Shown: one piece after another, positions 3,989-56,098 of the stretch
Position numbering within the stretch: the first letter of the stretch is position 1
Layout: every line of letters begins with the position of its first letter
NCBI RefSeq assembly: GCF_030653815.1
Contig: NZ_JAURYQ010000008.1
Location: 25,016-89,015 of the forward strand
Length of the DNA stretch: 64,000 nt
From: Rhodoferax sp.
GTDB taxonomy: Bacteria; Pseudomonadota; Gammaproteobacteria; Burkholderiales; Burkholderiaceae_C
Direction of reading: 5' to 3'
Position numbers and translations under genes: made by a program
Notes under the pieces: model-generated
Database searches by the model: none
What the model saw: only the letters and a program-made list of their open reading frames with translations
What the model was told of the DNA's origin: nothing

Positions 3989-3990
3989 CG

Positions 3991-7833: not shown

Positions 7834-7844
7834 GAGGACGACCT

Positions 7845-24888: not shown

Positions 24889-25440
24889 TTGGGCATCACG
24901 ACGGTCACTGAGGCTGGAGCGAGACTTCTCCTAGCCTGCAGGATCGCAGGCATTGACGCGCGCACCTTGCAATGCTGGCAAGCCCATGAGGGATTGGTCA
25001 AGGGCGATGGTGGACCACAAGCGGTGCGTCCCACACCCTGCCATGCATTGAGATTAGACGATCGCGCCATCTTGCTTAGCGTGACCAATGAGTCGCGCTT
25101 CTGCGTAGTACCACCTGCCCGTATCGTTCCCATGTCGGCTTACGAAGGCGTGCATCTGGCCAGCGAGTCCAGCTTAACTGGGTACTACGGGCACAAGGAC
25201 AAACCACTCACCGAGGACGCGCCAAAGCGCCCAAAACAGTGCGACCGCCCACGACACACTTTGCCAGCGCAGCACGCCAGGTCTGGTGTTGGAATTTGAC
25301 CTATTTGCCTGCGACTGTGATGGGTCGTTGGTTTCATTTGTACCTGATTCTGGAGTTGTCCAGCCGCAAGATCGTGGGCTGTGAAGTGCATGACGGTGAT
25401 CGCTCGGATCATGCGGTTCACCTGGTACGGCGAGCGGTGG
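24889..25440 (+). pseudogene. Frameshifted, truncated IS3-family transposase remnant
   Basis: Plus-strand translation gives EAGARLLLACRIAGIDARTL, then VRPTPCHAL and VPPARIVPM in one frame, and after a frameshift near 25175-25185 LRAQGQTTHRGRAKAPKTVR, QVWCWNLTYLPATVMGRWFH and LYLILELSSRKIVGCEVHDG in another. This is the C-terminal ORF of an IS3-family element, with the first catalytic Asp in WNLTY replaced (usually WDxTY) and the end lost after AVHLVRRA, before the last catalytic acid. No inverted repeats are recognised. It is a dead remnant lying exactly between the plasmid backbone and the defence operon. Confidence 0.8.
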
Positions 25441-25575
25441 CAGCAGGATGCTTTAGTCAGCCCGATGCTTGGTTGTGTGCACTTGGCTTGAGGGACTGAG
25501 TCCCATGTTGCACTGCCTTGCCCGCCATCTTTGGCGCTCGCGGGGGGATGACTTGAGCTTCTGCCCGAGTTGTAG

Positions 25576-27519
25576 CTAGTGCGTTTCCTGCATACGCCCA
25601 TAGCCGGTGGCGATGCGAGAAGCAAGTTCGGGAAACAGCAAGCTCAGCACTGCGTCATACCGCGCGGGTCGGAGACATGCTTCATCGCCTGACGCTACTT
25701 TGTCGATGATGGATTGGCGCCATGCTGCATAGAGATCGGCCTGCTTCTGCGTGAACTGCGCCTCAAGGCCGTAGGCCTTGACTGCCATAGGGTAGAGCGT
25801 ATTCCACTGCTGGGTATCGGTGCCGCTTTGCATGACGGCGTTGAGAACCTGAAACCCGGTGTCGACTGCGTAGCCGACGCCGCGGTTCTGCTGAATGGAC
25901 AGGATGCGTGGAATGACGCCAGCATCTTCTACCATGACCACATCGGCAGCGCCTGGCATGCCATGTGCCGCGAGGGCCTCAGCGGCTTCCATGAGTTGCA
26001 CCCACTGTTCGCTGTCTGGCCCGAGGAGCGAGGGCTTTGGCTCGTTGCCTCGATGTGTCCGTCGTGCTTTCTTAATGCGGGCGTTGGCGTCGTAGAACCG
26101 CATTGCCGCCGAGAGGTAGGTGACGGCCCACTCTGAGGCCGGTGTGGCGAGGAGGCGAGGGCGTCTCAATTCAAGCAGCCGCTCTTGATAGCGAACGGTG
26201 ATCGGGTGTCGGTCCATTTCTGCTTCGAGCATCTTCCGCTTGATGCGCCAGACGGGATGGTGAACCCAGCGTTTGCCTATCGTCTGGTCGACGATCAGGG
26301 TGCGCAGCCCGTCCAAGGTCACTCGCCCCCCGAATGAGCCGATGTTGATCTCCAGTGTTGGCAGATCGAGTTCGCGGATGCGGCGTAGTTTTTCTTCGTC
26401 GATTCCATGGGTCACCGTGACTTCGGCCAATAAGGTCAGCGGCCAAGCTTGGCTGTAGGTGTCTTCGACATCCTCCTCGAAGTCTCCGCTGACCATCGTC
26501 ATGGTGCCGCCGTGGGTATGAATCTGGCGTCCTCCGAGCGTAGCGATCACGTCAGGCACGATGCTGCCCAGGCGCCGCTCCAGTCGTACCTCATCCAACA
26601 CCAGGTTGCGAGAGGCCGTCATCCAAAGTTTACGAATTCTGTCCTCTTCCCAGTCGCCACCGAACTCCTCGGGCGGATCGCGGGTGACCTCGACTTCGAG
26701 GCCGGGCGTCGCAATCGACGAGGCTTGCTCAAGGATAGCCTTGACTTCGCGGTGAAGCAGCGTTTCGCGGCGCCAGCGTTGTATGGTTGCGGCGTCCGTG
26801 TCGAGCGGCAGGTGCGAGCGAAAGTCCGATTCGTCGGTCTCCTGCCAGCCGTCCAGAGCATCTCGTGCGGCCTGCGTGGCCGCTGCATTGGCCTCTGTGG
26901 TTAGCTCTTGATCATTCCAATGGGCGCACCACCGGATGTCCGGAAGGATGCGCAGCCGGGCGCGAATCTCCTCGGGTCCGAGCATCGCGATAGTTGGATC
27001 GGAAAGCGACAGCGTGACGATGGCGCGTCCGCTGCCGTCGCTGTCGGTTTCGCGAAGACCTGTCAGGTCGACCAGCAACTCTCGTCCATCGTCGAGCGTC
27101 AGCAGGGCCGTCGCGTAGTCATGCAATGCCGCGCTGACAATGGAAACGCGTGCGGCCGGGGCTTCAACCCAGACCTCATAGCCCTGGCCGCTGAAGCCCT
27201 TGGCAGTCGCCGACATTCTCCGCCGTGGAAGATCGATAAAGCCTGTCTCCAGCAGGTGTCGCGTGGCGGCAAGGCGTGCTGCAACCACAGAACAGTCATC
27301 CTTCTGCGCGCCTGCTGGATGACGGAAATGCGCCGTGGGGCGTGTTCGAAGCGGCTGGCCTGCCATCACGGGGATCAGCGAAAGTTTGCACGCGGGGCAG
27401 GTGCATACGCACCCACCTTGCGCGACTTCGGGATCGTGGATGTAACGCGGCTCGCCGGTTTGCGCGTCGTGCGCCCACTTTAACGGCACCGTAGTGGCGT
27501 CGACGGCTGGGTTCCGCAT
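25576..27519 (-). CDS. CoiA-like protein, putative nuclease
   Basis: A 647-residue protein from ATG 27519, 32 bp after the DUF6527 stop. The N-terminus has a CoiA-like metal-binding cluster: CVCTCPACKLSL at residues 37-48, then AHFRHPAG and a Cys at 76. A central segment (SIVPDVIATLGG, later LTLLAEVTVTHGIDEEKLRR and LPTLEINI) looks like a PD-(D/E)xK nuclease core, in which PD and AEVT would supply the metal-binding acids. The C-terminal 200 residues are helical and unassigned. CoiA proteins act in DNA uptake in Gram-positives, but relatives in Proteobacteria occur in mobile and defence contexts. As the last gene of the nine-gene run it is a candidate effector. Function is inferred. Confidence 0.7.
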   Translation of the reverse strand: MRNPAVDATTVPLKWAHDAQTGEPRYIHDPEVAQGGCVCTCPACKLSLIPVMAGQPLRTRPTAHFRHPAGAQKDDCSVVAARLAATRHLLETGFIDLPRRRMSATAKGFSGQGYEVWVEAPAARVSIVSAALHDYATALLTLDDGRELLVDLTGLRETDSDGSGRAIVTLSLSDPTIAMLGPEEIRARLRILPDIRWCAHWNDQELTTEANAAATQAARDALDGWQETDESDFRSHLPLDTDAATIQRWRRETLLHREVKAILEQASSIATPGLEVEVTRDPPEEFGGDWEEDRIRKLWMTASRNLVLDEVRLERRLGSIVPDVIATLGGRQIHTHGGTMTMVSGDFEEDVEDTYSQAWPLTLLAEVTVTHGIDEEKLRRIRELDLPTLEINIGSFGGRVTLDGLRTLIVDQTIGKRWVHHPVWRIKRKMLEAEMDRHPITVRYQERLLELRRPRLLATPASEWAVTYLSAAMRFYDANARIKKARRTHRGNEPKPSLLGPDSEQWVQLMEAAEALAAHGMPGAADVVMVEDAGVIPRILSIQQNRGVGYAVDTGFQVLNAVMQSGTDTQQWNTLYPMAVKAYGLEAQFTQKQADLYAAWRQSIIDKVASGDEACLRPARYDAVLSLLFPELASRIATGYGRMQETH

Positions 27520-27551
27520 GGTCTCCGATCTGGTTTTAACCTTCCAAGTAC

Positions 27552-27890
27552 TCAAGCCTTGCACCATTCGATCAGTCCCTTCCGGATCCAAAAATGACAT
27601 CTGCACATTTTCTGCTGATGGATCGAGGGGGAAACCGTTGGGCGCCTCCAAAAATCATGCTCAACCTCCCAACGTGGACGACGTTCGGGATTTAGCGAAA
27701 GCGATATCTGAACACCGCATCCGCCTGGGCAACTCAAGCACGCCCATTTTTTTACCCCACCGGCCACCACTAACCAAAGTTCGCCGGCAGGTATCTCGAT
27801 CTTGCCCGGATGCCGATCGACTCGTTTCACGAGAAAGTTGAAGTCCAGAAGCCCGAGGCGGCGCAGCATCAACGCAAAGAAGCGGTTCAT
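27552..27890 (-). CDS. DUF6527 metal-binding protein of the ubiquitin-like system
   Basis: A 112-residue protein whose start lies 4 bp after the JAB-E1 stop. It has the pattern ELWLVVAGGVKKWACLSCPG followed by CGVQISLSLN, PRW, TVSPSI and CRCHFWIRKGLIEWC. Multiple Cys, one His and the SPS motif match the small metal-binding family DUF6527, which is repeatedly seen beside bacterial E1/E2/multi-ubiquitin genes. A role as a zinc-binding accessory, possibly ligase-like or substrate-binding, has been suggested by comparative genomics but is not established here. The tight spacing on both sides shows that it belongs to the operon. Confidence 0.8.
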   Translation of the reverse strand: MNRFFALMLRRLGLLDFNFLVKRVDRHPGKIEIPAGELWLVVAGGVKKWACLSCPGGCGVQISLSLNPERRPRWEVEHDFWRRPTVSPSIHQQKMCRCHFWIRKGLIEWCKA

Positions 27891-27894
27891 ACAG

Positions 27895-29304
27895 TTACCC
27901 GATCACGCCAAGAAAGGGGTTCACGTCACCGCGGCCCCAGGTGGCCTCGGTTCCGCAAACAGGGCATGTCGGAATCGGTCGACACGTCATTGAACGATCC
28001 TCCACACGGTCGAATCGGCGAATGCGGTTGTGCGTCATTCCACCTTGGCCGCGGAAACCTGTCAAACCCTGGATCAACTCATCCACTGCGGCGCAAGCAA
28101 TACTGGTAGTGAACGTGACCACTGCTGGGGCTGGGTCGCCACCTCCCTCCACATACGCCTCGGCCTTGCGGCGTTCAAACTCTGCCGGATCATTGCGCTG
28201 CAATCCTTCAGCTGCAGCACGCTGGGCGTTGACGACGCCAAGGCAAATCAGGCAAGGGTTACCCGGCCTGATTGTCGTGACGCGGCCAGTCATATCGTAG
28301 TCCACACCGCTTTTGGCCGACCGCATGCGCAACCCTACGTCGATCAACGGAATGCCGTAGTAGTGGGCAAGTCGGTTCAAGGTGAGCCGACCCTGGTTGT
28401 CATCGGTACAGCCGAAAAGCACATCGCAAGACCGCAGAACGTCACGTAGCGATGGGTCGCCCACCCATGCACGCCGAGTAACAACCTGGGTGCCCAAGCC
28501 GCAAGCCTCGATTTCACGTGCGAGGATGTCTATCTTGGCCAGCTTCGCGGGTACATCGGCGGCGCGCGATCCGTGGACACGGTTGAGATTGGTCGTGTCG
28601 ATCGTGTCGTTGTCCATCAATGCGAGATGCCCGACACCCAGCCGAGTCAGCAGCGAAACGACGGCACTGCCCGTTCCGCCGCAACCGATCACCCCTACCC
28701 GCAGTGCCTGCACGATGGGATTGAAGCCCTTGCCGAACAGTGCTGCCTGCCGAGCTAGAAACTCCGTATCTTCGCGTTCAGCGTCCGCGCGCCAGATCTT
28801 GATCTTGCTTCCGACAATGGATATGGACGACGCCTTCGTGGATGCCTTGGCTGATTTCCACAGGCGCCCCACGATGGCATCGTGCTGACCGAAGACCATA
28901 CTGGCAAGTCCCTGTGCACCCTTGTTGAAGGTGGTGCGCGCCAGCTCAGCTTCGTTGCGATCGTCCTGGTCGGAGAAAAACGCACCCGCGCCTGGATGCG
29001 TGTGAACCAGTGCGGGGACGAGGTTACGGTGCTGTGCCAGGCCCAGCAGCCGCATGAATCCCTGCGTTGACCACGTCACGTGCACCGAGGAGGACGAGAC
29101 CATCTCGTCGGATGTGATGGGCACCACCTCGTGCGAGATCAGGCGGATGCGCGGCTGCTTGGACCAAGGATCGGCCGCAATTTCGGCTTTGCCAAACAGC
29201 ACATAGGCAGCTGCCTCCGAACCGTTCTCTCGATGAAGCAGCGCGCGCAGCGCCGCTTCATGGGATTCCAGCAAAATGATGTCCAACGCTACGGCCGACA
29301 TCAT
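27895..29304 (-). CDS. JAB/JAMM peptidase fused to ThiF/E1 activating enzyme
   Basis: A 469-residue two-domain protein. The start at 29304 overlaps the upstream stop as ATGA. The JAB domain (about 1-190) has the JAMM zinc motif HTHPGAGAFFSDQDD (His101, His103, Ser111, Asp114). The E1 domain (about 210-450) has the nucleotide loop VGVIGCGGTGSAVVSLLTRL, ALMDNDTIDTTNLNR and two CxxC pairs (PCLICLG and CPVCG) that probably bind structural zinc. E1 would adenylate the C-terminus of a ubiquitin-like protein, and JAB would process or remove it. Such fusions occur in predicted bacterial ubiquitin-like systems and in anti-phage operons of the CBASS and Bil type. The substrate here is presumably the tandem Ub-like protein encoded just upstream. 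Confidence 0.92.
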   Translation of the reverse strand: MMSAVALDIILLESHEAALRALLHRENGSEAAAYVLFGKAEIAADPWSKQPRIRLISHEVVPITSDEMVSSSSVHVTWSTQGFMRLLGLAQHRNLVPALVHTHPGAGAFFSDQDDRNEAELARTTFNKGAQGLASMVFGQHDAIVGRLWKSAKASTKASSISIVGSKIKIWRADAEREDTEFLARQAALFGKGFNPIVQALRVGVIGCGGTGSAVVSLLTRLGVGHLALMDNDTIDTTNLNRVHGSRAADVPAKLAKIDILAREIEACGLGTQVVTRRAWVGDPSLRDVLRSCDVLFGCTDDNQGRLTLNRLAHYYGIPLIDVGLRMRSAKSGVDYDMTGRVTTIRPGNPCLICLGVVNAQRAAAEGLQRNDPAEFERRKAEAYVEGGGDPAPAVVTFTTSIACAAVDELIQGLTGFRGQGGMTHNRIRRFDRVEDRSMTCRPIPTCPVCGTEATWGRGDVNPFLGVIG

Positions 29305-30230
29305 TTGGCCTCCGCCAGCGCGTGCTCGATGCGCTTGATCATCGTGTGCAGGCCATCGACACCCGGCCGCCAGCTGTTGTTGTGGCGAGACCAGCGTTGC
29401 CAGTTGTGGCCCATGAAAGCGTGCGGCTGATCCGCGCATGTCGGGTAGCGACCTGCGGACACCAATGTCAACCAGAGGTTGCAGAAGAACATGTCCGGTG
29501 CCACGTCGGGATAGCCGGGCGGCAGAATCACCAGCACGTCGGCAGCCGGGTGATTGAACTTGCCTTGAGGCAGTTGCATCTGCTTCAGCACAACACCCGT
29601 GTGCGGGCCGTCACTGACGACAGCCACGGTGAAGCCGTGGCTGTCGAGATAGCGCTGATCGGCTTCCGGCAGGGCCGCCAGTCCTTCCGTCGTGTCGCGG
29701 ATGAGCGTGATGAAGCGTTCAATGCCCGGCTTGCTGAGGTCGATCAAGTCGGTATCGCGGATGAGCACATCCTGGCCGCCGCCACGCACTTCGAGATAGA
29801 CGTCATAGGTGTCGGTAGGGACGCCAGCCAACGCCTTCAAGATCTTGCCACTGATGGACGGCTTACCCCATTCCATTTGGCGATCGTCGATCGTGAACTT
29901 GAAGGCGCGGTCGGTCTGAAAAATGACGAAGCGCTCTGCACCGCGTCCACGCAGATCGTAAGTCTCGTCGAGACGCAGGTCCTCGAACTCGCCAGACGGC
30001 AGGATTGCGTAGATGCTGTAGTCCGCCACAGGACGGACTTCGGCGGCTTGAAGGATCTGGCGGCCGGTAGGGACCGGATCGCGCAGATCCAGATGGCGCT
30101 CGTTGAGCTGTTCATCGGCCACCACGATGCGATAGAGGTGTGCCAGACGAAGACTGCGGCCTTCGCGGATGGCGGCACCAACATCTTCGAGAGGGATATG
30201 GCTGTCATCGCCAGGATTTTTCGTTTGCAT
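29301..30230 (-). CDS. Tandem ubiquitin-like domains fused to an E2-like domain
   Basis: A 309-residue protein. Two multi-ubiquitin-type beta-grasp domains lie at about 31-105 (YRIVVADEQLNERHLDLRDP, FEDLRLDETYDLRG) and 109-178 (FKFTIDDRQMEWGKPSISGK, DVLIRDTDLIDLSKPGIERF). The C-terminal part (about 182-309) matches prokaryotic E2 family E: ADVLVILPPGYPDVAPDMFF, then GHNWQRWSRHNNSWRPGVDG and a terminal helix. Cys250 and Cys265 are candidates for the thioester residue. No free C-terminal diglycine is visible, so either the Ub-like domains are cleaved from the fusion by the JAB enzyme or they act as a scaffold. It overlaps the JAB-E1 gene by 4 bp, which ties modifier, conjugase and activator into one unit. 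Confidence 0.88.
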   Translation of the reverse strand: MQTKNPGDDSHIPLEDVGAAIREGRSLRLAHLYRIVVADEQLNERHLDLRDPVPTGRQILQAAEVRPVADYSIYAILPSGEFEDLRLDETYDLRGRGAERFVIFQTDRAFKFTIDDRQMEWGKPSISGKILKALAGVPTDTYDVYLEVRGGGQDVLIRDTDLIDLSKPGIERFITLIRDTTEGLAALPEADQRYLDSHGFTVAVVSDGPHTGVVLKQMQLPQGKFNHPAADVLVILPPGYPDVAPDMFFCNLWLTLVSAGRYPTCADQPHAFMGHNWQRWSRHNNSWRPGVDGLHTMIKRIEHALAEAK

Positions 30231-30322
30231 TTGATTGACTTTCTGTCGGCCATCTGCGGGATTGCAGTTTTCTTGGCCTTCAATAAGTCAATCGCGGCGG
30301 ATTCCAGGACCGGAAAGCCGAT

Positions 30323-33300
30323 TCAAACATTTTTTATGGTGATCGCGCCGGCCGGAAGGTCGCCGCAGATGAAGAAGCTGGGGCAACGTGGGCAAGCGCG
30401 CGCTTCTTCCTTCACAGGAAATTCGCCGGCGCGGACGCGCCTGACGATCTCCTGGACCTTCTCACTGCGCGTTTTGAGCTTTCGCTCGGTGATCTCCAAC
30501 GGCTGCGTCGTCTCGCTGGTCAGGTATGTGACCTCGACCTGGGCCGACCCACCATAAGTCTGCATGGTCGCGAGATGGAGCAGCGTGTACTCGATGTCAT
30601 CGAAAGCGTTGGACCTTGGTTTGCCGGTTTTTACCCGCCGAACGACGATCTGCCCCTTGTCGCCCCGGGCGACACTGTCCGGCCGGACGAGAATTTCGCC
30701 TTCCACCCACCCGAGCGAGATCGGCGCTGCCGGTGCAGGTACGCCGCGACTTCGAGTTTCGATGAGGTAGCCCACCAGCCGGCGCGCGATGCACCGGTAA
30801 TCTTCCGCATAGCCATGGTCGACTGCTCCCTTGGCCTGCCATGCCTGGTCGAAGCGCGCGCCGAGTTCGGCTTCGTTTGGCACCGTCATCTCATGCGTGA
30901 TCTTCAACCAATCGAATACGTCCCCGACAACGTTGTGCATCTTCATGAAGGCCGTTTCCGTACGGCGACCTCCGAGTTTCAGGACGTGGGTGTAAAAAAA
31001 GCGACGTGGACATCGCTCGAACAGGTTGACCTGGCTATCGGTCCAGACCGGCTTTTGCGCCCAGGCAACTTGCAAGCATGAATTCGGCCGCGGCTTGACA
31101 CGCCGCTGCGGTGGATTGGGCGAGTGGATCAGAAGGTGTCGGATGGAGGCCAGGAACTTCGATGGATTGCGCGCTTTGCCGTCGGACTGAACCGATGATG
31201 CATAGAGAAAGAGCCGATCACGGGCGCGGGACAGCGCCACGAAGAACAGGCATTCCTCTTCTTCATCGTGCCCAGCTTTCACCGCTTCCAATCCGGTGAT
31301 TCCATCTGAGCCATGAATCAGACCGTCTGGCGGCACGCAGCGCGGTGCCATGTTGTTGCGCGGCAGACCTGAGGTCACCATGCCGGGTATGTGCACGGTG
31401 TGAAACTCCAGTCCCTTGCTGGCATGGATCGTCATGAGACGTACCGCATCGATGCCGTCGACGACTCCTGGCAAATGGCGCAAGCCGCGGTCCTCCGAAA
31501 GCAGGACGAGTCGGCGAATTCGATCAAGAAGGCGCGTGCAGGGGGCACCCGCACCCGATGGTTGTTGACGGCAGAAGTTGAGGAATTGCCACAGCGCCAG
31601 ACCTTTCATTCTGCTTTGGGCGTCGCCTGCCAGGTACAGGGCCTTGGCGAGTCCAAGATGGTCGATCACCCAGGTGGACAAAATGGTCCAAGGATTGCCG
31701 GTCGGGCTGATCCCATCGAAAAGTTCGGCCACGCGCGCCAATGTGGCTTTGCTCGTTCCGGCGAGTTCCGGTGGCCAGCTCCCTGCGAACCGCCAGTCGA
31801 GCGCCGCAACTTTGCTTTCGCGCAGTCGCTCGATGATCTTTACGACATCTTGCAGCGGCAGCTTGTACGCCGGCATCGTGGAGGCCCGCACCAATCCGAC
31901 GACATAGGGGTCGCTCAGCATGGAGAGCAAGGCGAGGAGATCCTTGATCTCAGGTCGCTCGAACAGACTCCCAAGGTGGAGTACCGGGATGCCTCTGGCT
32001 TCCAGGCCCTCAGCGATTTCGCTCAGACGGGCGTTGGATGCGCACAGAAGGGCCTGTTCGCGGTAAGCCGTTCCCGCGTCGCGTTGGGCCTGGATCGCAG
32101 CGGCCACCGTCGAGATTTCATCATCCGTTGTGCTCACAACCCTGAACTCTGGTGCGACACCAGAGGCGCCTCGGCTCGCTTTCAAATGCAATGGCAATGC
32201 GCCAGTCGATGCCTTCATCGTGCCGGAGAAGGCCGTGAAAACATCGATGACTTCCTGTCGAGACCGATAGTTGATACCCAGTTGATCAACTTGAGCACCG
32301 GGAAAATCCAAGGCGAACTGGGCCATGTTGGTGGCCGATGCGCCGCGGAAGCGATAAATGGATTGACGGGCATCGCCAACAACCCAGAGGTCACGTCCAT
32401 CACCGACGATAGCTTTCAAAAGACGTACGGAAGAACGGTTCACGTCTTGGTATTCGTCGACGAGGACATGCGTGTGCCGTGCCCTTAGTGCATTCCTCAC
32501 TTCGGCATCGGCTTCGACAAGGCGTACAGGCTGGGCGACGAGATCGCCAAAGTCGATCAACTGCTTTGCAGTCATCAGGCGCTCGTAGGTTTCGTAGACC
32601 AAAGCGACTTCCAGGCACTTCTCAGCACGCATCGCCGCATCGGCATCATCAGCGCAGTTCTGTGCCATGGCTTGGGCCAATGCCCGGTAGCCAACAGCGT
32701 CAATCACCTCGTCCTTGGCGCGTGAAATCGCACTGAGCATGTCGCTGAGATCGAGCGCTGGGTCCCATAGGTTGCGATAGTGGTGCAACGGGAGTCGCGG
32801 CAACTCGTCTTCCAGCAATTCGATGCCTTCGGATCGATCAATGAGACGAGGGCCTGCAGGTAGTCCCAGCTTGTCGTGAAAACGGCGGACGATATCCAAG
32901 CCGAATGCATGAAACGTACCGATCCACATCGCTGCGGCAGCTTTTGGGTTGCTTGCGGCGAGTCGCTCGCTCAACTCGTTCGCCGCCTTGTTGGAGAACG
33001 TGAGGACAAGAATGGACATCGGGTCCACGCCGTCAGTCAGAAGACTCTGGATACGCTGCACCAGCGTTCTGGTCTTGCCTGTGCCTGGACCGGCCTGCAA
33101 CTGGAACGCAGTGTTGCGATGGTTGGCAGCCGCAATCTGGGTCGGGTCTGGAGTCAATACCGCCGCTGCGGCGGCAGGCTGCATGGATGCGGTTGGCTCC
33201 ATCGGCAGGAGCAGTGCATCCAGAAGCTGTTGCTGGACTACCTGCAAGGGTGCGCCAAGGCGATTGGCGATGTCGGCAGAAGAGCAGCCACCATCGACGT

Positions 33301-33748
33301 GGTGATGACGGGCGACCGAGCGCGGTAACAAGAGTTCGCGGGCGAAGAGGTCCATACGGACCTCACGGCGTTCCCGGGCGCCATAGTCAAGCACTCTTTC
33401 GATGCCGACTGGCGCATCCTCCACCGAACGGTCTGGTTCGACTTCCTCCGTTACCACGTCCTGAACGCCACCTTCCAAGACGACATGCCCCAGTTCATGA
33501 GCGATCAGAAAGGCGCGGTCGAACACCGCACCAGTATCTTCATACAAAATGCTTCCGGCTTGGCTGTCGAATACCGCACGCCCGCTTTTCAGTGCGGAGT
33601 CGCCCTGTGGCAAAGCATACACATCAAGGTCTCGCCGAGCCGCTTCGCGGCTGACGAGTTCAAGCAGGTTCCATGGATCGTCGCCCGCTGCGACCGCCGC
33701 TTGATGGATGCGTTCTGCCTCACGCCGTGTGGCTTCGGTCGCATCCAT
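30323..33748 (-). CDS. ImmA/IrrE metallopeptidase - UvrD helicase - nuclease-like fusion
   Basis: A 1141-residue multidomain protein. An ImmA/IrrE zinc-peptidase domain occupies about 1-150, with HELGH at residues 84-88. A superfamily 1A helicase follows, with Walker A AGPGTGKTRTLVQRI near 218 and Walker B VDEYQDVNRSS near 420, then VGDARQSIYRFRGA and MTIHASKGLEFHTVHIPG. The last 250 residues resemble the AddB/RecB-type PD-(D/E)xK nuclease with an iron-sulfur signature (ACPRCPSFFICGD), but where DxKTG is expected the sequence reads RRVKTGK, so the nuclease may be inactive. ImmA/IrrE peptidases cleave repressors in DNA-damage or phage responses. The fusion suggests a helicase that senses abnormal DNA and cleaves a regulator, possibly one of the two genes directly upstream (2-bp gap). 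That is inference. Confidence 0.88.
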   Translation of the reverse strand: MDATEATRREAERIHQAAVAAGDDPWNLLELVSREAARRDLDVYALPQGDSALKSGRAVFDSQAGSILYEDTGAVFDRAFLIAHELGHVVLEGGVQDVVTEEVEPDRSVEDAPVGIERVLDYGARERREVRMDLFARELLLPRSVARHHHVDGGCSSADIANRLGAPLQVVQQQLLDALLLPMEPTASMQPAAAAAVLTPDPTQIAAANHRNTAFQLQAGPGTGKTRTLVQRIQSLLTDGVDPMSILVLTFSNKAANELSERLAASNPKAAAAMWIGTFHAFGLDIVRRFHDKLGLPAGPRLIDRSEGIELLEDELPRLPLHHYRNLWDPALDLSDMLSAISRAKDEVIDAVGYRALAQAMAQNCADDADAAMRAEKCLEVALVYETYERLMTAKQLIDFGDLVAQPVRLVEADAEVRNALRARHTHVLVDEYQDVNRSSVRLLKAIVGDGRDLWVVGDARQSIYRFRGASATNMAQFALDFPGAQVDQLGINYRSRQEVIDVFTAFSGTMKASTGALPLHLKASRGASGVAPEFRVVSTTDDEISTVAAAIQAQRDAGTAYREQALLCASNARLSEIAEGLEARGIPVLHLGSLFERPEIKDLLALLSMLSDPYVVGLVRASTMPAYKLPLQDVVKIIERLRESKVAALDWRFAGSWPPELAGTSKATLARVAELFDGISPTGNPWTILSTWVIDHLGLAKALYLAGDAQSRMKGLALWQFLNFCRQQPSGAGAPCTRLLDRIRRLVLLSEDRGLRHLPGVVDGIDAVRLMTIHASKGLEFHTVHIPGMVTSGLPRNNMAPRCVPPDGLIHGSDGITGLEAVKAGHDEEEECLFFVALSRARDRLFLYASSVQSDGKARNPSKFLASIRHLLIHSPNPPQRRVKPRPNSCLQVAWAQKPVWTDSQVNLFERCPRRFFYTHVLKLGGRRTETAFMKMHNVVGDVFDWLKITHEMTVPNEAELGARFDQAWQAKGAVDHGYAEDYRCIARRLVGYLIETRSRGVPAPAAPISLGWVEGEILVRPDSVARGDKGQIVVRRVKTGKPRSNAFDDIEYTLLHLATMQTYGGSAQVEVTYLTSETTQPLEITERKLKTRSEKVQEIVRRVRAGEFPVKEEARACPRCPSFFICGDLPAGAITIKNV

Positions 33749-33750
33749 AG

Positions 33751-34344
33751 CTAGTCCCGCAGTGCCTTCAGCGCCTCTTGTTGGGCTGGCGTGAGTTGGG
33801 AAGTCTCAACGGCCTGCTCGAACGATATCTGCTCGGTCACCGCAGGCTTCACGCTCGATCTGAAACTCAGACCGGACACTATGGTCGGTGGATTGTTCAA
33901 ATACGCAGACACGGCGTCGACAGTCGCACCTAGTTCGCCGGCGAGCCGTTGAACGAGTTGCCTCGGAATGGTACTTGCGTCCACTGCTCGGTCACGAAAA
34001 CGCATCAACAATAAATTGCTGATGTTCAGTCTTTGAGCTACAGATTTAAACGCAGAGCGAGTCAATTGAACAAATGGATCCGCGACCGCAGCGTTCTGTG
34101 CCGAGCCAATTGCTGTCTGAAATTGCTGCCAAGCCTTTTCGACAACCTGTTCAGACGACACCTGCAGTTCATCGTCGCCTCGGGAGGCATCAATCATCAA
34201 TTCAATCGAGCAGTCCACCAGTGCATTTGCATGTTCTGGATACAGGCTCAGATATTGCTCCAATGTTGTGCGGTCATGTGAGGGTTCAACGGAGAACGCA
34301 AGAAGAACCTCTTCTTCATTCAGTTTCGAATGTTTGACGCTCAT
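33751..34344 (-). CDS. Hypothetical partner of the sigma-like factor
   Basis: A 197-residue soluble protein starting inside the sigma-like stop (ATGA overlap) and ending 2 bp before the ImmA-UvrD gene. The N-terminus (TTLEQYLSLYPEHANALVDC) resembles the short helical segments of anti-sigma-like proteins. The middle (SVAQRLNISNLLLMRFRDRA, then LAGELGATVDAVSAYLNNPP) looks like a degenerate helix-turn-helix. No catalytic motif is seen. Position suggests an anti-sigma factor or repressor controlling the operon, and it is a plausible substrate for the adjacent ImmA/IrrE peptidase. No family is recognised. Confidence 0.6.
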   Translation of the reverse strand: MSVKHSKLNEEEVLLAFSVEPSHDRTTLEQYLSLYPEHANALVDCSIELMIDASRGDDELQVSSEQVVEKAWQQFQTAIGSAQNAAVADPFVQLTRSAFKSVAQRLNISNLLLMRFRDRAVDASTIPRQLVQRLAGELGATVDAVSAYLNNPPTIVSGLSFRSSVKPAVTEQISFEQAVETSQLTPAQQEALKALRD

Positions 34345-35132
34345 AGTTCAGCCTCCTCTTCAAGAATGGCCTTGAGAGCTTTGCAGGCACGATCACGGCG
34401 GTTACGAACCGTCCTTTCGTCACACTGCAGAATACGTGCAATTGTCATGACATCTTGTTCCTTGGCATCAATCGGAATTCCTTTCAAAAGAAGACCGATG
34501 ACTTGCTTTTGATCCGGGGGTAAGCGGTCAATCGCAGCAAAAAGCACCGACCGGAAAGCAGGATCGTCAATTTTTTGAGGGTCGCCGCTCAAAAAGTTCT
34601 CCAGAGCAACTTCGACCTCGGGCGAAACCTCGGGGCCATCCGCATCCTGGGATCTCAGGGGGACAGTTGTTACGTCACCGACTACCGCTTTGAATTTGCG
34701 CAAAACGGACGTTCGAAGCGCGACCATCGCTTGATCGAAGTGAACTTCGTAAAAATCCAGCATATCAGCTTGTGAAGCGCAATCTTTTGTGACCAATACG
34801 ACAAATCGGTTAATGACTTCGTCACGAATATCGGTTGCGCTGCCGATACGAGAGCTCCAGATTTTCGAACGTAGTGACTGGTCTACGCGTTTCATCAGGA
34901 GGCGATATATCTTCTCGAACTGGCCATGTTCGCCATCTGCCCAGGCTCGCCGTAGGAAATAAAGCAGGACCTCCGTTGGCACATGCTCTGGGGCCGTTCT
35001 TGATACACCAGCGAACTGTAGAACTCGTGATGCCGCGTCAACAGACTCCAGTTTTTTGATCCAGGCCTCAATTGCGGGAGGGCGCTGGTAAGGCGTTCCG
35101 TCCTTGTCCTTGCGTTTAAGCGCTTCCGGCAT
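34341..35132 (-). CDS. Sigma-70-like transcription factor
   Basis: A 263-residue protein with a GGAGAAGG ribosome site. The N-terminal half is helical, with a region-2-like segment (IGSATDIRDEVINRFVVLVT). The C-terminus is a clear region-4 helix-turn-helix: LPPDQKQVIGLLLKGIPIDA, then VMTIARILQCDERTVRNRRD and RACKALKAIL. This is how ECF-like sigma factors end. It overlaps its downstream partner by 4 bp and begins 53 bp after ietS. Carrying its own sigma-like factor would let the operon be switched on as a unit. Whether it directs the promoter upstream of ietA or an internal one is not visible. Confidence 0.7.
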   Translation of the reverse strand: MPEALKRKDKDGTPYQRPPAIEAWIKKLESVDAASRVLQFAGVSRTAPEHVPTEVLLYFLRRAWADGEHGQFEKIYRLLMKRVDQSLRSKIWSSRIGSATDIRDEVINRFVVLVTKDCASQADMLDFYEVHFDQAMVALRTSVLRKFKAVVGDVTTVPLRSQDADGPEVSPEVEVALENFLSGDPQKIDDPAFRSVLFAAIDRLPPDQKQVIGLLLKGIPIDAKEQDVMTIARILQCDERTVRNRRDRACKALKAILEEEAEL

Positions 35133-35185
35133 TCCTTCTCCAGTGATGTTGGTTAGGTGGGGTGAATGGGGCTTGGCGGGTTGCG

Positions 35186-37405
35186 CTATCGAATACGAAT
35201 CGGCAGCGACACTTGCGGCTGGATCGGCACCAACGTTTTGGCGTAGGCGCGCAGGATGTCGTTGTAGAGGTCGGCATGTTTCGGGGCTTCCACCGTGATG
35301 ATCAGCGCGTAGCGGATTTTCTCGGCACCTGTGGCGCGGCCCCCTGACTCGCGAGCGTTGTAGTGGATATCGAAGACGGGGTTGTCAAGACTGCTACCGA
35401 GCATGCCTTTGGCACCGTGGAGGACGGTTTCCCATTTGCCGAGGTCTGAGCGGCGCTCCTCCTCGGTGGCGTACTTCTTCATGTCGAAGAAGCCCTTGGT
35501 GTCGGCATTGGCCTTGCCGTCCTTGATTTTCTTGTCACTGGGCCGGAACACAATCTCCAGCCCTGCGCGCGTATAGGCCGCCGCATCCTGCGGATCAGTT
35601 GGCGATGCGTAGCAAAATGTTGCCTTGAGGCGCACTTTGCCGTTCAAACCCCCAGCTGGCAGGGGTAGCGTGGCACGAAGGTACTTGCCGGGTTTCAACT
35701 CGCCCTGGTAAACCACACGCGCTACGCCCGCAGGGCAGGTGATGATCTCCATCAGGTCTTCTGGCACTTTGCCCCAACCTACCTCAACTTTGTCGTGGGT
35801 TGATGCATCGGCCGCATGGACCAGCAAGGCTTTGATTGCCAGTGGTGTCAACTCGGCACCCAGAATGGCGCGGACGCCCACTGCATTACGCAGCAGGTAA
35901 GGAGAGGCGAAACTGGTGCCGAGTTGTGGGGCCAGCAGCGGTTTCTTTCCCGGGGACAGCACATGAAAATACTTGGCCGCATCTCCGCCAAAAGCCATCA
36001 AATCCGGTTTGACTACACCTGGGCTGCGGCCGGGGCCGATGGCGCTGTAGGGTGCTCTTGCCCACCCCGCTTCGGTACCGTTGGTGGCACCAACGGCCAG
36101 TGCGTTCACGCAGTCCGACGGCACCTGTACTCGGGCATTGCCGACAGAGCGGTCCATTTCGCCGTTGTTACCGACCGCGACGGTCATCAAGGTATCGCCG
36201 TCGGCTAACAGATCATCAATTACCGAGGTCCAGGCGTGAACGTCGGTGTCTTCGATGGGCAGGTCAGGCCCAAGGCTAAGATTGACGAACTGGTATTGGC
36301 GCGACAGCAGAACCTGTTCGACAAAGCCCAAAGTGCGATACAGCTCCAGGGGGTCTTCCGCATCGGCATCCTTGTCGAGTACACGTAAGTGATCAACATA
36401 GGCAAACGGGCGTTGCGCGGTGCCGTTTGGCTGGATGGGGCCGAACAGGAATGCAGAAGTCACCCCGAGACCATGTTCCAAGCCTTGTGGATCGTCTTCG
36501 GCATTTTCATCAAGAACCCGGTATGACCGCAGCCAGGGACCGATCGCATGCTCTTTCGGCAAGCCGCCGTCCAGGATGGCCACCTTGGGCTCGGACGAAA
36601 ACGGCTGTTCGGTCGGCAGGCTGCAACTGACCGTCACGCTGCCCGTGCGATGCACGGGGCGCATGCCGCGCAGCCTGGGCATTGGCCGGATCACACGCAC
36701 GAATACAAACTCCGCCAGCCGATCAATGCTGTCATGCTTACCTTCGACCGGAACGAACCACATGTTGCCTGCCGTGAAGCCGAGGTCACTGTGGATTTTG
36801 ACGTCTACATCTTTCGCGTATTTGGCGAACGCCCGCTGGACAAACAAATGGTTCTCGTCGGGCAACAGGTGAAGGCCTACTTCAAAGAAGCGATCCTTCT
36901 TGTGCCCGTGGCTGACGATTCGCTCCTGGGGGGCGAATACAGAGAACTTCTCAATATGCGCGAGATCACCGGCTTCGTCTGATTCGGGTTCGATGCCTTT
37001 GGTCCAGGCTTTGAGATGGCGAAATGCTTGACGCTTGCCGGCGACAAACAACTCAGTTGTTGTGCATTCCCTGGTGGGGCCTTTCTTTGTCCAGCCGTCC
37101 GGGGTTAACTTGACGGTTCTGCTGCCTACTGATTCCAGGCCGACGGTACGCAGCATCGCCACTGGAAAGAACGATCGGGCGATGTAGCTGGGATTCATCG
37201 TCAGGCGTGCAACGCCAAAGTCACCGGGGCATGCTTGCGATGGCAATGCGTCCAGCGCCGCAGCTGCGTCAGAAAACTGGGGTGTTAGTCGCTCTCTGGC
37301 CTGCTGCAAGGTATAGACCTCAGCCTTGCCCGGCATGCGTTTTGGCCCCTTGATATCGTGTGTGAGCAGTTCGCCGCGTCCGATCAGAAAATTGGTTTGG
37401 CTCAT
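35186..37405 (-). CDS. ietS: Subtilisin-like S8 serine protease, IetS-type
   Basis: A 739-residue protein with an S8 peptidase domain in the middle. The catalytic Asp is in VAILDGGLPKEHAIG near residue 280, the His in GLEHGLGVTSAFLFG near 315 and the Ser in LGTSFASPYLLRNA near 500, so the triad looks complete. There is no signal peptide, so it is intracellular. The N-terminal 250 and C-terminal 200 residues are specific to proteases paired with AAA+ ATPases. It overlaps the ATPase gene by 4 bp. ATPase-protease pairs of this type are known as IetAS, first described for plasmid stability/incompatibility and later reported as anti-phage. A regulated intracellular protease acting as effector is inferred. 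Confidence 0.88.
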   Translation of the reverse strand: MSQTNFLIGRGELLTHDIKGPKRMPGKAEVYTLQQARERLTPQFSDAAAALDALPSQACPGDFGVARLTMNPSYIARSFFPVAMLRTVGLESVGSRTVKLTPDGWTKKGPTRECTTTELFVAGKRQAFRHLKAWTKGIEPESDEAGDLAHIEKFSVFAPQERIVSHGHKKDRFFEVGLHLLPDENHLFVQRAFAKYAKDVDVKIHSDLGFTAGNMWFVPVEGKHDSIDRLAEFVFVRVIRPMPRLRGMRPVHRTGSVTVSCSLPTEQPFSSEPKVAILDGGLPKEHAIGPWLRSYRVLDENAEDDPQGLEHGLGVTSAFLFGPIQPNGTAQRPFAYVDHLRVLDKDADAEDPLELYRTLGFVEQVLLSRQYQFVNLSLGPDLPIEDTDVHAWTSVIDDLLADGDTLMTVAVGNNGEMDRSVGNARVQVPSDCVNALAVGATNGTEAGWARAPYSAIGPGRSPGVVKPDLMAFGGDAAKYFHVLSPGKKPLLAPQLGTSFASPYLLRNAVGVRAILGAELTPLAIKALLVHAADASTHDKVEVGWGKVPEDLMEIITCPAGVARVVYQGELKPGKYLRATLPLPAGGLNGKVRLKATFCYASPTDPQDAAAYTRAGLEIVFRPSDKKIKDGKANADTKGFFDMKKYATEEERRSDLGKWETVLHGAKGMLGSSLDNPVFDIHYNARESGGRATGAEKIRYALIITVEAPKHADLYNDILRAYAKTLVPIQPQVSLPIRIR

Positions 37406-38568
37406 GCTTCAAGTTCCCTTTTCGATGTTTTCTTTGTGGTTGACGGCTGTTCGGCGGTGTACTTACGGATGGTGTCTCGGCTTACACCTGTGAGCTCGGA
37501 GACCGTGTGCTGTGACAGACGGGTCTGTTTAGCCAGCAGTACGGCCAGATCAATGCGCGCCTGACGATCCAGCACAAGAGCCCGTGATTTGACGAATTCT
37601 TCAATCAGGTCGGCATCTGATGCCGTTCCAAGTGCCACCGCGCGTCGGAAGCGCTGGATGTCGCGCTCAATGTCGCTGAACGACTCGCCATTGAAGGCGA
37701 AAGTCAGGATGTCAATCCAGCGACCAAACAATGCAAAGTCTGGACCGAGAAATCGCTTGATGGCTGCTTTGACGGCTGGTGTTTCTGGCGTCTTGAAATT
37801 GACGACCAGATCGAATCGGCGCCACAGCGCCGGATCGATCAGCTCCGGATGGTTGGTGGCCGCCAGCAGCAGGCCCGTGGCAGGCCACTCATCGACCTCC
37901 TGCAGAATGACAGTGACAAGGCGCTTCAACTCGCCGATGTCGGTCTCGTCGCTACGGCGTTTGGCAACGGCATCGATTTCATCCAGCAAGAGTACGCAGG
38001 GACTGCGTTTCGCGAAATCAAGTGCAGTGCGCAGGTTGCTCCCACTTCGTCCGAGCAGGCTGCTCATGACGGCGGTCAGGTCCAATACATACAGCGGGAC
38101 CTCCAATTGCGCAGCAAGCCAGCGTGCTGTCAATGTTTTGCCAACGCCTGGTGGTCCGACAAAGATTGCCGAGCGCGTCGGGCTTAATCCCATTGAGGCG
38201 AGGCGTTCCGTCTGTCGACGCTCCTGAATGAGTTGACTCAACGTCTCTTCGAGGCTGATTGACAACAACGGCTGCTCTCGATCTGGTGTGTCCTTGAAGA
38301 CTTTCAGAAGTGAAAGTCGTGACTCGTCATCGACCGGCAATGTTTGGGTGGGTAGGGCAGGCTGCATGGCCTTGCGCATGGGGGCGCTTGCTCGATGCGT
38401 CTTAGTGCGTAGATAGAGGTCTAACTGTTCAGCCAGCTCTGGGTCGGTGTTGCGGTACTTCCGGACTAGCCGGGCCACGAACAGGCGTACATCTTCGCTC
38501 TGCTCGGCAAGAGCCAGTCTAATGACTTGGGCTAAATCTGATTGAACTTCGTTCATTTCGTCCAACAT
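37402..38568 (-). CDS. ietA: AAA+ ATPase, IetA-type
   Basis: A 388-residue ATPase. A helical N-terminal region (about 1-130) precedes the AAA module with Walker A VGPPGVGKTLTARWL near 140, Walker B CVLLLDEIDAVAKRR near 192, sensor 1 LLLAATNHPE and arginine-finger region DPALWRRFDLVV. The last 50 residues hold a helix-turn-helix-like segment (LSQHTVSELTGVSRDTIRKY), which could bind DNA. It is the first gene of the nine-gene run and overlaps the protease gene by 4 bp. In IetAS pairs the ATPase is thought to control the protease. The start ATG 38568 follows an AT-rich region. ATG 38556 is an alternative. Confidence 0.88.
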   Translation of the reverse strand: MLDEMNEVQSDLAQVIRLALAEQSEDVRLFVARLVRKYRNTDPELAEQLDLYLRTKTHRASAPMRKAMQPALPTQTLPVDDESRLSLLKVFKDTPDREQPLLSISLEETLSQLIQERRQTERLASMGLSPTRSAIFVGPPGVGKTLTARWLAAQLEVPLYVLDLTAVMSSLLGRSGSNLRTALDFAKRSPCVLLLDEIDAVAKRRSDETDIGELKRLVTVILQEVDEWPATGLLLAATNHPELIDPALWRRFDLVVNFKTPETPAVKAAIKRFLGPDFALFGRWIDILTFAFNGESFSDIERDIQRFRRAVALGTASDADLIEEFVKSRALVLDRQARIDLAVLLAKQTRLSQHTVSELTGVSRDTIRKYTAEQPSTTKKTSKRELEA

Positions 38569-38640
38569 TTATGTAAATAATTGATTTTAAAAGAAAAAAT
38601 ATAATTTAAAAGTGGAATAAGAAAATTATCTCACGTTTTG
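38569..38640 (-). promoter_or_regulatory. AT-rich promoter region of the defence operon
   Basis: About 70 bp of strikingly AT-rich DNA (runs such as AAAAGAAAAAATATAATTTAAAA) directly upstream of ietA, in a GC-rich surrounding. It is the only long AT-rich gap before the nine genes and is the likely site of their promoter. Individual -35 and -10 boxes cannot be chosen with confidence. Confidence 0.5.
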
Positions 38641-39227
38641 AAGCGACTGTGAAGGTGTGTGGGGATCTGGTGCCGAATTCAGGCGAGTCATGCTGGCGGC
38701 ACATTGCATAACGTGCCCGGCTGGCCCCGAGCGTCCGCCAGTAAGGGCGGCGGTGTTGGCAGGCTGCGCCACTTGCTATCCGGACTGGTTTGTTCGCATC
38801 GATATTCGACAAAGCAGCAATATTTACTGCGCAGTGAATCTTGTTGACCCACGCAGGGCATCCCGGCGTTGCCGCCGTCGGGCTCGCGGGCGTTGCCCCA
38901 CGCCTCGTACCGAGTTGCGCCCATGCGGCTTTGATCCCTGACGCCTCCGGCCTCTACTTCGTTCCTGGCCTGCGCGCTGCGCTTGCCTTTCGTGACTTCG
39001 TTGAAGGTGGGTTGGGTGGTCTTGCTGTTTCCTTTTAGCCGTATCTTGAGCTTGATCGGCGGATGTGGCGTGGTCTACGTCCTGGAGCGGTCAGGCTGGA
39101 TTGAAGCTGATTGTGAATGCCTCAACATTTTTGTTTCGACGCAAAATTCCCAAAGTGATCTTATGTTTGGCGTAGGTTTTGGCGTAGGTTTTTGATCTAC
39201 CAGGTATGTTTTCATTGGTAGATTGAT
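38641..39227. other. Island-edge stretch with no supported gene
   Basis: Nearly 590 bp between the defence operon promoter and the tRNA-Gly fragment. Open frames here lack family motifs. It includes a tandem 12-bp repeat (GGCGTAGGTTTT twice, near 39169-39193) and TCTACCA/TGGTAGA elements at 39196, 39216 and 39229 in alternating orientation. It looks like decayed mobile-element sequence at an insertion boundary. Confidence 0.4.
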
Positions 39228-39250
39228 TTCTACCATTGAACTACACCCGC
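39228..39250 (-). pseudogene. 5' fragment of a tRNA-Gly gene
   Basis: Read on the minus strand, the 23 nt begin GCGGGTGTAGTTCAATGG and continue TAGAA, identical or nearly so to the acceptor arm and D arm of bacterial tRNA-Gly(UCC). After position 23 the match stops and no anticodon or T arm follows. The fragment faces the island, so the 3' part of the tRNA has been lost or displaced at this boundary. Confidence 0.65.
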
Positions 39251-39337
39251 GTATGACCTGAAAGGTCTTCAAGAGGCGCTAGTGTACATGCTCGCAGCCA
39301 CCCCTTTGGGGAGCGGCGCCTCGCAGCGATAGGCCCG

Positions 39338-55509: not shown

Positions 55510-55886
55510 GGGGCTGCACTGGTTTCGACGTGGATTCGGACGCGCGGCAGGGCATGTCGAGCTGAATGGGCTCGTAAAACAGATTCAAAAAAACTAACTG
55601 CAAACGACGAACGTTTCGCACTCGCTGCTTAATTGCACGTGAGCCTCACAACAGTCAGCCGATCGGCTGGGCAAGGGTAGCGCAAGCTGTCCAGGCTGTG
55701 GGGTAATTTAATTCGGCTGGGGTCGCCTTGGGTAACTTAGGGCGATTCAAGAAAATAGGTTACTGGCGATTTGCATAGCGTGCCACTGCGCGATGTGAAA
55801 AGCGAGATCCAAATCAGACGGCTACACATGTAGAACTGTTCGAAGAAGGTTTGCGGACGCGGGTTCAAATCCCGCCAGCTCCACCA
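55510..55886 (+). ncRNA. ssrA: Transfer-messenger RNA (tmRNA)
   Basis: The 5' end GGGGCTGCACTGGTTTCGAC and the 3' end GGTTCAAATCCCGCCAGCTC-CACCA are the tRNA-like halves. GGGGCTG pairs with CAGCTCC (one G-U) and the gene ends in encoded CCA. The tag reading frame at 55600-55632 encodes ANDERFALAA and a stop. tmRNA with SmpB rescues stalled ribosomes. Its 3' end is a common integration site, and an integrase gene follows at once. Confidence 0.97.
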
Positions 55887-55898
55887 CTATAACGTCCA

Positions 55899-55937
55899 AG
55901 GCCGTTTGCTGACATCCAGTAAACGGCCTTTTTCTTT
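55899..55937 (+). terminator. Terminator after ssrA
   Basis: AGGCCGTTT (55899-55907) pairs with AAACGGCCT (55921-55929), followed by TTTTCTTT. It separates tmRNA from the integrase. Confidence 0.8.
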
Positions 55938-55998
55938 GGAAAATCAATAATTTATGTCCAATGTTGTCCAAAGTGATGTGATTGCATCCAAACGATGA

Positions 55999-56085: not shown

Positions 56086-56098
56086 CTTTGGAGTTCCC

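Follow-up and report, generated by a model that had tools for sequence, protein, structure and literature searches.

Bacterial operons for ubiquitin-like conjugation of the Bub type are known by the hundreds, phage protection not having been shown for them (PMC13373217). The corresponding 6e polyUbl operon comprises a polyUbl protein, an inactive E2-like protein, a JAB-E1 protein and a metal-binding protein (PMC1779556). The published controllers of Bub and other operons are CapW, CapHP and CapKS: among 544 Bub operons 219 are accompanied by CapW or CapHP and 59 by CapKS, and CapP is activated by single-stranded DNA and cleaves the repressor CapH (PMC13373217). Further, 70% of the multiubiquitin proteins were reported to be adjacent to a DUF955 (ImmA) pair (PMC4963859), and a metalloprotease of Deinococcus cleaves a repressor after radiation (PMC5552922). 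Here we address the open question of when bacteria run ubiquitin-like conjugation by means of a nine-gene locus from Rhodoferax sp. (RefSeq assembly GCF_030653815.1), which lies in a stretch of 64,000 nucleotides of contig NZ_JAURYQ010000008.1 (positions 25,016 to 89,015 of the forward strand). This whole stretch is called the window below, and its own numbering is used throughout.

A preliminary description of this sequence had read nine genes on one strand, with gaps from gene 1 to gene 9 of -4, 53, -4, 2, 92, -4, 4 and 32 bp, as a single coordinated defense system. The genes, co-directional on the minus strand at 25576-38568 like all features of the locus given below, and their gaps were reproduced exactly (with the ATG at 29304 taken as the start of gene 7 and that at 27519 as the start of gene 9, for which longer mechanical open reading frames exist). 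Likewise, the parts it had named were recovered by Pfam, PADLOC or NCBIfam, as IetAS, sigma region 4, an ImmA-helicase, Multi_ubiq/Prok-E2_E and Prok-JAB/ThiF. We favor, with moderate confidence, the interpretation that genes 3-8 form a DNA-sensing switch for ubiquitin-like tagging, which would operate through a protease-helicase fusion (gene 5), cleavage of the gene 4 product, a sigma factor (gene 3) and a two-block promoter-like motif, with IetAS (genes 1 and 2) as a clade-specific front end. The observations on which this proposal is based are a fixed gene order, two sites of the motif, intact ImmA and UvrD motifs, the loss of the RecB-type nuclease motif, a sigma region 4, a weak resemblance of gene 4 to XRE proteins and the exchange of the tagging modules.

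Genes 3-8 and the protease-helicase fusion

Gene 5 (30323..33748) encodes a protein of 1141 aa in which Pfam profiles recovered an ImmA-type metalloprotease domain (Peptidase_M78, E = 3.3e-11), a UvrD helicase and a PDDEXK_1 domain of the RecB type; comparison of its ImmA and nuclease regions with PDB sequences gave no meaningful match. Conservation was assessed on the 71 distinct sequences among 79 gene 5 proteins that were long enough, a set that takes in the plasmid copies and the window. In keeping with the IrrE/ImmA metalloproteases, the two histidines and the glutamate of an HExxH motif are present in all 71, followed by a downstream glutamate region in which E129 is kept in 71 and E138 in 70. 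The Walker A and DEYQD motifs of the helicase are kept in every one of these proteins, and four cysteines of the Fe-S type in 69-71 of them. By contrast, the RecB-type (D/E)xK motif, whose position was set by eye from the motifs of RecB, is found in none of the 71, with no D or E at the position in question and the lysine retained in 25. Loss of this acid should abolish cleavage, and an active nuclease in gene 5 was rejected on this ground; the RecB-type domain without its catalytic acid then probably grips DNA. As the nuclease motif is lost and the helicase and protease motifs are kept, gene 5 is likelier to be a sensor or motor than a DNA shredder. Of the two nucleic-acid enzymes counted in the preliminary description, gene 5 keeps the motifs of a helicase and has lost that of a nuclease; for gene 9 a nuclease role was sought by family searches, which gave no match at the thresholds stated below.

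Relatives were collected from 84,980 species, each represented by a single genome, in a scan whose query was an alignment of the ImmA region of gene 5. Among 320 pattern matches 185 encode a relative, and the best 80 of these 185, which are the nearest ones and include near-copies, were analyzed as loci (L-numbers below) with profiles built from the window and the plasmid copies. The profile recovered gene 5 in 79 of the 80; on the contig of the remaining one (L036) the sigma gene and gene 4 are present and gene 5 was not scored. In all 74 loci with at least 1.7 kb of upstream sequence the sigma gene and gene 4 lie directly upstream of gene 5; in 53 of 70 loci gene 4 and the sigma gene share a 4-bp overlap. 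A ubiquitin-like module lies downstream of gene 5 in 66 of the 67 loci with at least 6.5 kb on that side: a polyubiquitin-like (polyUb) gene was detected by profile in 63, by Pfam in L067 and by resemblance to L067 in L046, and L031 has a different ubiquitin-like module. The sole exception, L078, shows a truncated gene 5 followed by open reading frames on the opposite strand, one of them transposase-like by eye. E1 (by profile) and DUF6527 were each found in 65 of these 67 loci. This gene order is kept across Pseudomonadota, Planctomycetota and Myxococcota and on a cyanobacterial plasmid, and the same six genes occur on plasmids of Pseudomonas koreensis, Klebsiella, Leptolyngbya, Acinetobacter, Agrobacterium, Roseovarius and Cereibacter (in the plasmid copy L002 gene 6 is interrupted by insertion sequences). 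Judged from their sequences, genes 3-8 are a conserved six-gene unit, in an arrangement far from chance. In the converse direction, a multiubiquitin match was found in 15 of 398 genomes of the phylum, with gene 5 directly upstream in 6, the window's own included; two of those without gene 5 upstream (L095 and L101) have a weak ImmA-like match of 18-23 bits on the opposite strand. The association thus holds in one direction: the gene 5 controller goes with such modules, and polyUb modules also occur apart from it.

The module of the window begins with gene 6 (29301..30230), which combines two ubiquitin-like domains (Multi_ubiq, two copies, E = 2.4e-45) with a Prok-E2_E domain (E = 4.2e-53) and is BubA/BubB-like, its PDB matches being Citrobacter BubB (3e-9) and the multi-ubiquitin structure 9d5b (1.7e-33). 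Its E2-like domain (29301-29678) has no invariant cysteine among 21 relatives (C66 is kept in 15 and C81 in 16), and R95, W96 and H99 are conserved. Gene 7 (27895..29304), which unites a JAB deconjugase with an E1 (Pfam Prok-JAB and ThiF), is BubCD-like and matches Citrobacter BubCD in the PDB across residues 24-419 (1.1e-39). Its presumed JAMM residues (E30, H101, H103, S111 and D114) are kept in at least 20 of 21 relatives, and its E1 residues are kept in the aligned relatives. Gene 8 (27552..27890) is a DUF6527 protein (Pfam, E = 1.3e-23) with no meaningful match among PDB sequences. The order of polyUbl, E2-like domain, JAB-E1 and DUF6527 places genes 6-8 with the Bub operons, matching row 6e of PMC1779556 and the PDB entries of BubB and BubCD; DUF6527 is presumed to be the metal-binding protein of that row. 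No essential difference was seen in the module itself, and it is the controller that differs.

Across the 67 testable loci three types of module could be distinguished: type A with polyUb-E2 and JAB-E1 (15), type B with polyUb and an E1 bearing a DUF6791 domain (43), and type C with diverged polyUb-E2 and JAB-E1 (6). Three loci were not typed by score, namely L078 with its broken gene 5, L086 with type-B genes split between frames, and L031 with a Bil-like operon. In the last, PADLOC recovered BilB (0.0028), BilC (1.8e-15) and BilD (1.4e-9), the PDB comparison again pointed to BilD (3.9e-7), and the first gene, of 98 aa, had no family match. A tree of gene 5 was built from 71 rows by a quick method and rooted at its midpoint, and it contains long branches. 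The module types require 7 changes on it, against a mean of 25.8 after shuffling, which suggests that the modules behind the sigma gene, gene 4 and gene 5 were probably swapped a few times. Some further variants were observed. In L067 (13472-13879) and, by resemblance, in L046 (4930-5337) the type-B protein carries one ubiquitin-like domain in place of the tandem, preceded by an N-terminus that is charged and coiled-coil-like. A complete cassette in L042 has just upstream of it (3652-8452) another ubiquitin-like module of a different kind, with Ubl-like, E2-like and JAB-E1-like genes and two DUF6527-like matches. In L086 (8638-15368, a Sphingomonas draft) the sigma gene, gene 4, gene 5 and E1 are each split between overlapping frames, by decay or by sequencing errors.

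IetAS in front of the unit

Gene 1 (37402..38568, 388 aa) encodes an IetA-type AAA+ ATPase (PADLOC IetA, 1.3e-80; NCBIfam anti-phage ATPase IteA, 2.4e-69) and gene 2 (35186..37405, 739 aa) an IetS-type S8 (subtilase) protease (Pfam Peptidase_S8, 3.5e-16; PADLOC IetS, 3.6e-45). The two have the adjacency of ATPase and S8 protease that defines IetAS, with NCBIfam scores of 234.3 and 125.5 bits that fall short of the equivalog cut-offs for IetA (510) and IetS (900). The GxxGxGKT and DE residues are kept in 20 of 20 aligned cassette IetA proteins, and D279, H311 and S498 of IetS, which we take from the family to be catalytic, in 21 of 21. In 69 loci the upstream sequence extends for 5 kb or more, and in 18 of these an IetS of more than 100 bits was found just upstream of the sigma gene, its end lying close to that gene. 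The IetAS-positive cassettes named in the trees belong to 11 bacterial families (Oxalobacteraceae, Comamonadaceae, Chromobacteriaceae, Rhodocyclaceae, Gallionellaceae, Alcaligenaceae, Nitrosomonadaceae, Rhodanobacteraceae, Burkholderiaceae, Pseudomonadaceae and Zoogloeaceae). Their typed modules are of type A in 11 and type C in 4, with no type B; conversely, IetAS is absent from all 39 type-B loci that have sufficient flanking sequence on either side.

The principal alternative to a front end belonging to the switch is that genes 3-8 form one unit and IetAS is an independent, hitch-hiking defense module in front of them that is only transcribed through. We regard this as a serious possibility, if somewhat short of an even chance. 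The patchy occurrence just described speaks for it, as does the absence of the strict promoter-like motif before ietA; there is no strict match before the sigma gene either. As the PADLOC IetA model is unspecific (368 of 369 genomes), the free-standing set for a phylogenetic analysis of IetA was made up of those of its loci at 223 bits or more, L120-L133 and L135-L143. In the resulting tree 20 cassette and 23 free-standing proteins fall on opposite sides of a branch with support 94/93. After the addition of six closer free copies the cassette proteins still lie on one side (22 rows against 29 free), which, together with the 11 families and the position of IetS close before the sigma gene, argues against independence; the support falls to 84, with L157, which has no sigma gene within its 1.5 kb stretch, as sister, and long branches make the exact joins unsure. 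Pairwise distances over 17 loci correlate strongly between IetA and IetS (rho 0.89) and between gene 5 and gene 4 (0.94) and less so between IetA and gene 5 (0.56; Mantel test, 0 of 500 for each of the three), again as expected of a separate module.

Free-standing relatives point in the same direction. A close IetS occurs in 8 of 349 genomes of the order, the window's own included. Three of these, at 86-87% identity, carry the sigma gene and gene 4 downstream. They are apparently the genomes of scan loci L014, L018 and L020 and, by their identical IetA or equal coordinates, not independent of them. The other four (74%, 57%, 56% and a partial 46%) have no sigma gene or gene 4 within the stretch examined, and free IetAS pairs at 57-66% identity are found on plasmids (L150-L152). 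These three non-independent matches and the fall in support from 94/93 to 84 make an independent IetAS slightly more probable. By these counts IetAS, as a known system that genes 1 and 2 match, is a recurrent but optional partner, a clade-specific addition that here forms its own clade and is placed before genes 3-8.

Two further observations concern IetAS. On Agrobacterium and Komagataeibacter plasmids (L151, 2399-9214; L152, 2397-9214) a free IetAS pair (IetS at 57-58%) stands divergently beside caspase-family and hypothetical genes, and the caspase-family gene is perhaps another recurrent partner. Before ietA (about 38569-38650 of the window, minus strand; L010-L035) there are a conserved block of roughly GTGAGAnAATA and an AT-rich stretch, which are unlike the sigma motif and are perhaps a promoter or operator belonging to ietA.

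The sigma gene, gene 4 and a two-block motif

Gene 3 (34341..35132, 263 aa) is a predicted ECF-like (extracytoplasmic function) sigma factor. Pfam recovered sigma region 4 and, among the matches listed, no region 2; two-domain structural alignments to ECF sigmas begin from about residue 51, with a high root-mean-square deviation. Gene 4 (33751..34344, 197 aa) has a helical N-terminus and a putative XRE-like helix-turn-helix (HTH) at about 88-152, and is a putative repressor or anti-sigma and the predicted substrate of the ImmA protease. Its XRE-like match is weak. The structural matches are of the XRE type, with DdrO among them and none at E<=0.001; Foldseek searches with the models of genes 3 and 4 returned nothing at this threshold, and gene 4 had no meaningful match among PDB sequences.

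New here is a two-block, promoter-like motif before the tagging module, which recurs inside the sigma gene. In the window it lies in the gap between genes 5 and 6 (30289..30316, TTTCCGGT-N14-CGATTG) and within gene 3 (34529..34557, TTTCCGGT-N15-CGATTG), beginning 213 bp before gene 4. In strict form (TTWCCGGT-N-CGATTR) it is present in the gene 5-6 gap of 65 of 69 testable loci, the window included, and the other four (L004, L007, L052 and L060) have variants. The blocks are near-invariant and the spacer is not, part of which is fixed by the pattern itself. Type-B loci and four type-A loci have a CCGG-to-CGATT distance of 16 nt; it is 15 nt in the other type-A loci, in type C and in the Bil-like locus L031, where the same motif precedes the Bil-like operon. 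The second site, inside the sigma gene, is strict in 58 of 71 loci, 192-231 bp before the match to gene 4.

Outside these two cassette sites, 2.89 Mb of sequence (71 loci, both strands counted) contain two strict matches. No strict motif was found in ten whole stretches that have polyUb without gene 5; L009, L095 and L100 among them contain looser matches to the core, none upstream of polyUb on its strand. Among five stretches of the same sample that do have gene 5, the window's own left aside and some of them close to scan loci, the strict motif precedes polyUb in three, a variant in one, and neither in the most distant. In the genome of the window the relaxed pattern CCGGTN{13,16}GCGATTG occurs at 7 places (a control pattern at 1). 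Only the two in the cassette have the full first block, its TTW being missing from the other five. At the site within gene 3 the motif overlaps conserved residues, and synonymous codon choice was therefore compared across the 40 sigma columns conserved in at least 85%. Ala200 is GCG in 68 of 68, Ile201 ATT in 66 of 68 and Arg194 CGG in 62 of 70. With normalized entropies of 0.00, 0.12 and 0.25 they are the three most constrained of the 40, the next column having 0.64. Such extreme synonymous constraint points to selection acting on the DNA at this site. The single transcript envisaged in the preliminary description is too simple a picture, given that a promoter-like motif precedes genes 4 and 6 and not ietA.

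An alternative that we regard as unlikely is that the two-block motif is an operator, bound by gene 4 as a classical repressor of the XRE type, and that the sigma factor has an auxiliary role or acts elsewhere. It could account for the presence of DdrO, a repressor cleaved by IrrE, among the structural matches of gene 4, and for the palindromic core ACCGGT and the foldable inverted repeat after the second block. Two unlike blocks at a fixed spacing of 15-16 nt next to a sigma gene are nevertheless a better fit to a promoter, as is the position of the strict motif before gene 4 and before gene 6, only two matches in the 71 loci lying elsewhere. With regard to RNA structure, window positions 25000-39500 have no Rfam match at E<=1. 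The leader of gene 6 (30228..30294) can fold into a hairpin just ahead of the start codon (-26.6 kcal/mol). Leaders of this gene fold better than shuffled sequences (62 leaders, median z -2.06, 32 below -2), and RNAalifold on a plain sequence alignment of 31 of them predicted no pair; a structured leader before gene 6 is accordingly weakly indicated.

Mobility, the proposed relay and known controllers

To the left of the cassette (window 1-23000, minus strand) are genes for TrbI, TrbL, VirB4-like, VirB11-like, SLT and TrfA proteins (conjugation and replication), and to its right metabolic genes; its left-hand neighbor is thus a conjugative element, integrated or plasmid-like. Farther on (55510-57343) a tmRNA (transfer-messenger RNA) gene is followed by a tyrosine integrase of 453 aa, possibly marking a second element integrated at that gene. 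The sigma gene matches 77 plasmid records, and the E2 family occurs in the genome of the window and in none of its 59 other nearest relatives (35 of the same genus), as expected of a mobile unit; genes 3-8 are likely to be mobile. In the Klebsiella plasmid L003 (18956-24859) the cassette is adjoined by TnsA, a DDE transposase, an ATP-binding protein and TnsD, a Tn7-like set that is a possible carrier. Carriage by phages was considered and set aside, a scan of viral contigs with gene 4, sensitive to close relatives only, having confirmed no relative. Gene 9 (25576..27519) gave no Pfam match at E<=0.1 and no PADLOC or NCBIfam match at E<=0.01. It belongs to a large CoiA-like family, with 425 relatives in a protein search (of 120 listed most are unnamed and one is a competence protein CoiA). 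Among the cassette loci the window is the sole match to it; nor does it match the two annotated CoiA genes near the cassettes of L006 and L007. It was rejected as a member and is a neighbor outside the conserved system. The nine families once proposed to act as one coordinated system, when checked for co-occurrence, are thereby reduced to genes 3-8, conserved in their order, with IetAS as an optional partner supported within one clade and gene 9 left out.

The exchange of the tagging module for a Bil-like operon, a type that protects against phage, speaks against the suggestion that the role of the cassette is not phage defense but the maintenance of a plasmid or other element, by addiction or incompatibility, or else a general response to DNA damage. 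We consider this suggestion distinctly unlikely, even with the 77 plasmid records and the conjugation genes beside the cassette in its favor, to which may be added that a toxin-antitoxin function was attributed to the ImmA pairs found near multiubiquitin genes (PMC4963859) and that a role of Bub in a general stress response is left open by the authors of PMC13373217. PADLOC also scores the gene 5 helicase against GajB and DRT helicases. GajB of Gabija, likewise a UvrD-like helicase, was reported to bind DNA termini (PMC10952713) and offers a precedent for the sensing of DNA ends by a UvrD protein. Differently from Gabija, ImmA and RecB-like domains are fused to the helicase here, and the PADLOC matches listed for the nine proteins, limited to the best 25 in the case of genes 5 and 7, include no GajA-type nuclease. 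That gene 5 is mainly an effector unwinding or blocking phage DNA, with ImmA merely regulatory and tagging a separate weapon, is improbable despite these scores and the intact helicase motifs, considering the nuclease motif lost in 71 of 71, the want of any recognized active nuclease in the conserved unit and the fact that 66 of 67 testable loci have a ubiquitin-like module behind gene 5.

Returning to the DNA-sensing switch, the relay that we propose, each arrow of which is inferred and in which all functions, anti-phage activity included, are predicted, would run as follows. Phage attack or damage exposing DNA would be the trigger. The UvrD and dead RecB part of gene 5 would load on DNA ends or single-stranded DNA and thereby activate the ImmA protease, which would cleave gene 4. 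Until cut, gene 4 would restrain either the sigma factor, as an anti-sigma, or the promoter, as a repressor. The freed sigma factor would then read the motif before gene 4, as feedback, and before gene 6, as output, and the tag might act on phage or stress proteins. In its clade, IetAS would add a proteolytic effector or gatekeeper. The cassette offers a specific, testable switch, with a predicted sensor, substrate, sigma factor and promoter in one movable unit. If the proposal is correct, DNA processing would be the signal for tagging and one controller would serve different tagging systems; bacterial ubiquitin-like immunity would have a damage-to-sigma relay of its own; the protease-helicase fusion would be a new way of coupling DNA translocation to proteolysis; and the promoter would provide a simple reporter for inducing conditions and for a first phage phenotype.

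Among known systems, CapP is an ImmA/IrrE-type protease, and by analogy the gene 5/gene 4 pair may work like CapHP without being CapHP. In both, genes for a protease and an HTH protein precede an operon of this kind (PMC13373217). In CapHP, however, the protease is separate and small, whereas here it is the N-terminus of a 1141-aa fusion with UvrD and RecB-type domains, accompanied by an ECF-like sigma gene and the motif. CapKS is likewise a damage-responsive controller upstream of Bub operons but is a kinase/STAS pair, for which the available text describes no protease, helicase or sigma gene (PMC13373217). The main text of that paper does not contain 'helicase', 'ImmA', 'IetAS' or 'DUF6527', and names UvrD solely as an E. 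coli repair gene. Among the titles and abstract openings that searches of open PMC papers returned, none describes an ImmA-UvrD fusion beside ubiquitin-like operons, a mention in PMC12885553 or PMC12145246 not being excluded. The ISG15-like Bil system stands behind the same three genes in L031 only, and the module of the window is not Bil. IrrE/DdrO of Deinococcus likewise employs a metalloprotease, and DdrO is among the structural matches of gene 4; its regulon is different, and we know of no helicase fusion or sigma factor in it. We would give even chances to the view that the cassette represents a fourth class of immune-operon controller, in which the protease of a DNA-translocating helicase would free a dedicated ECF sigma factor and a private promoter would switch on either the Bub types or Bil.

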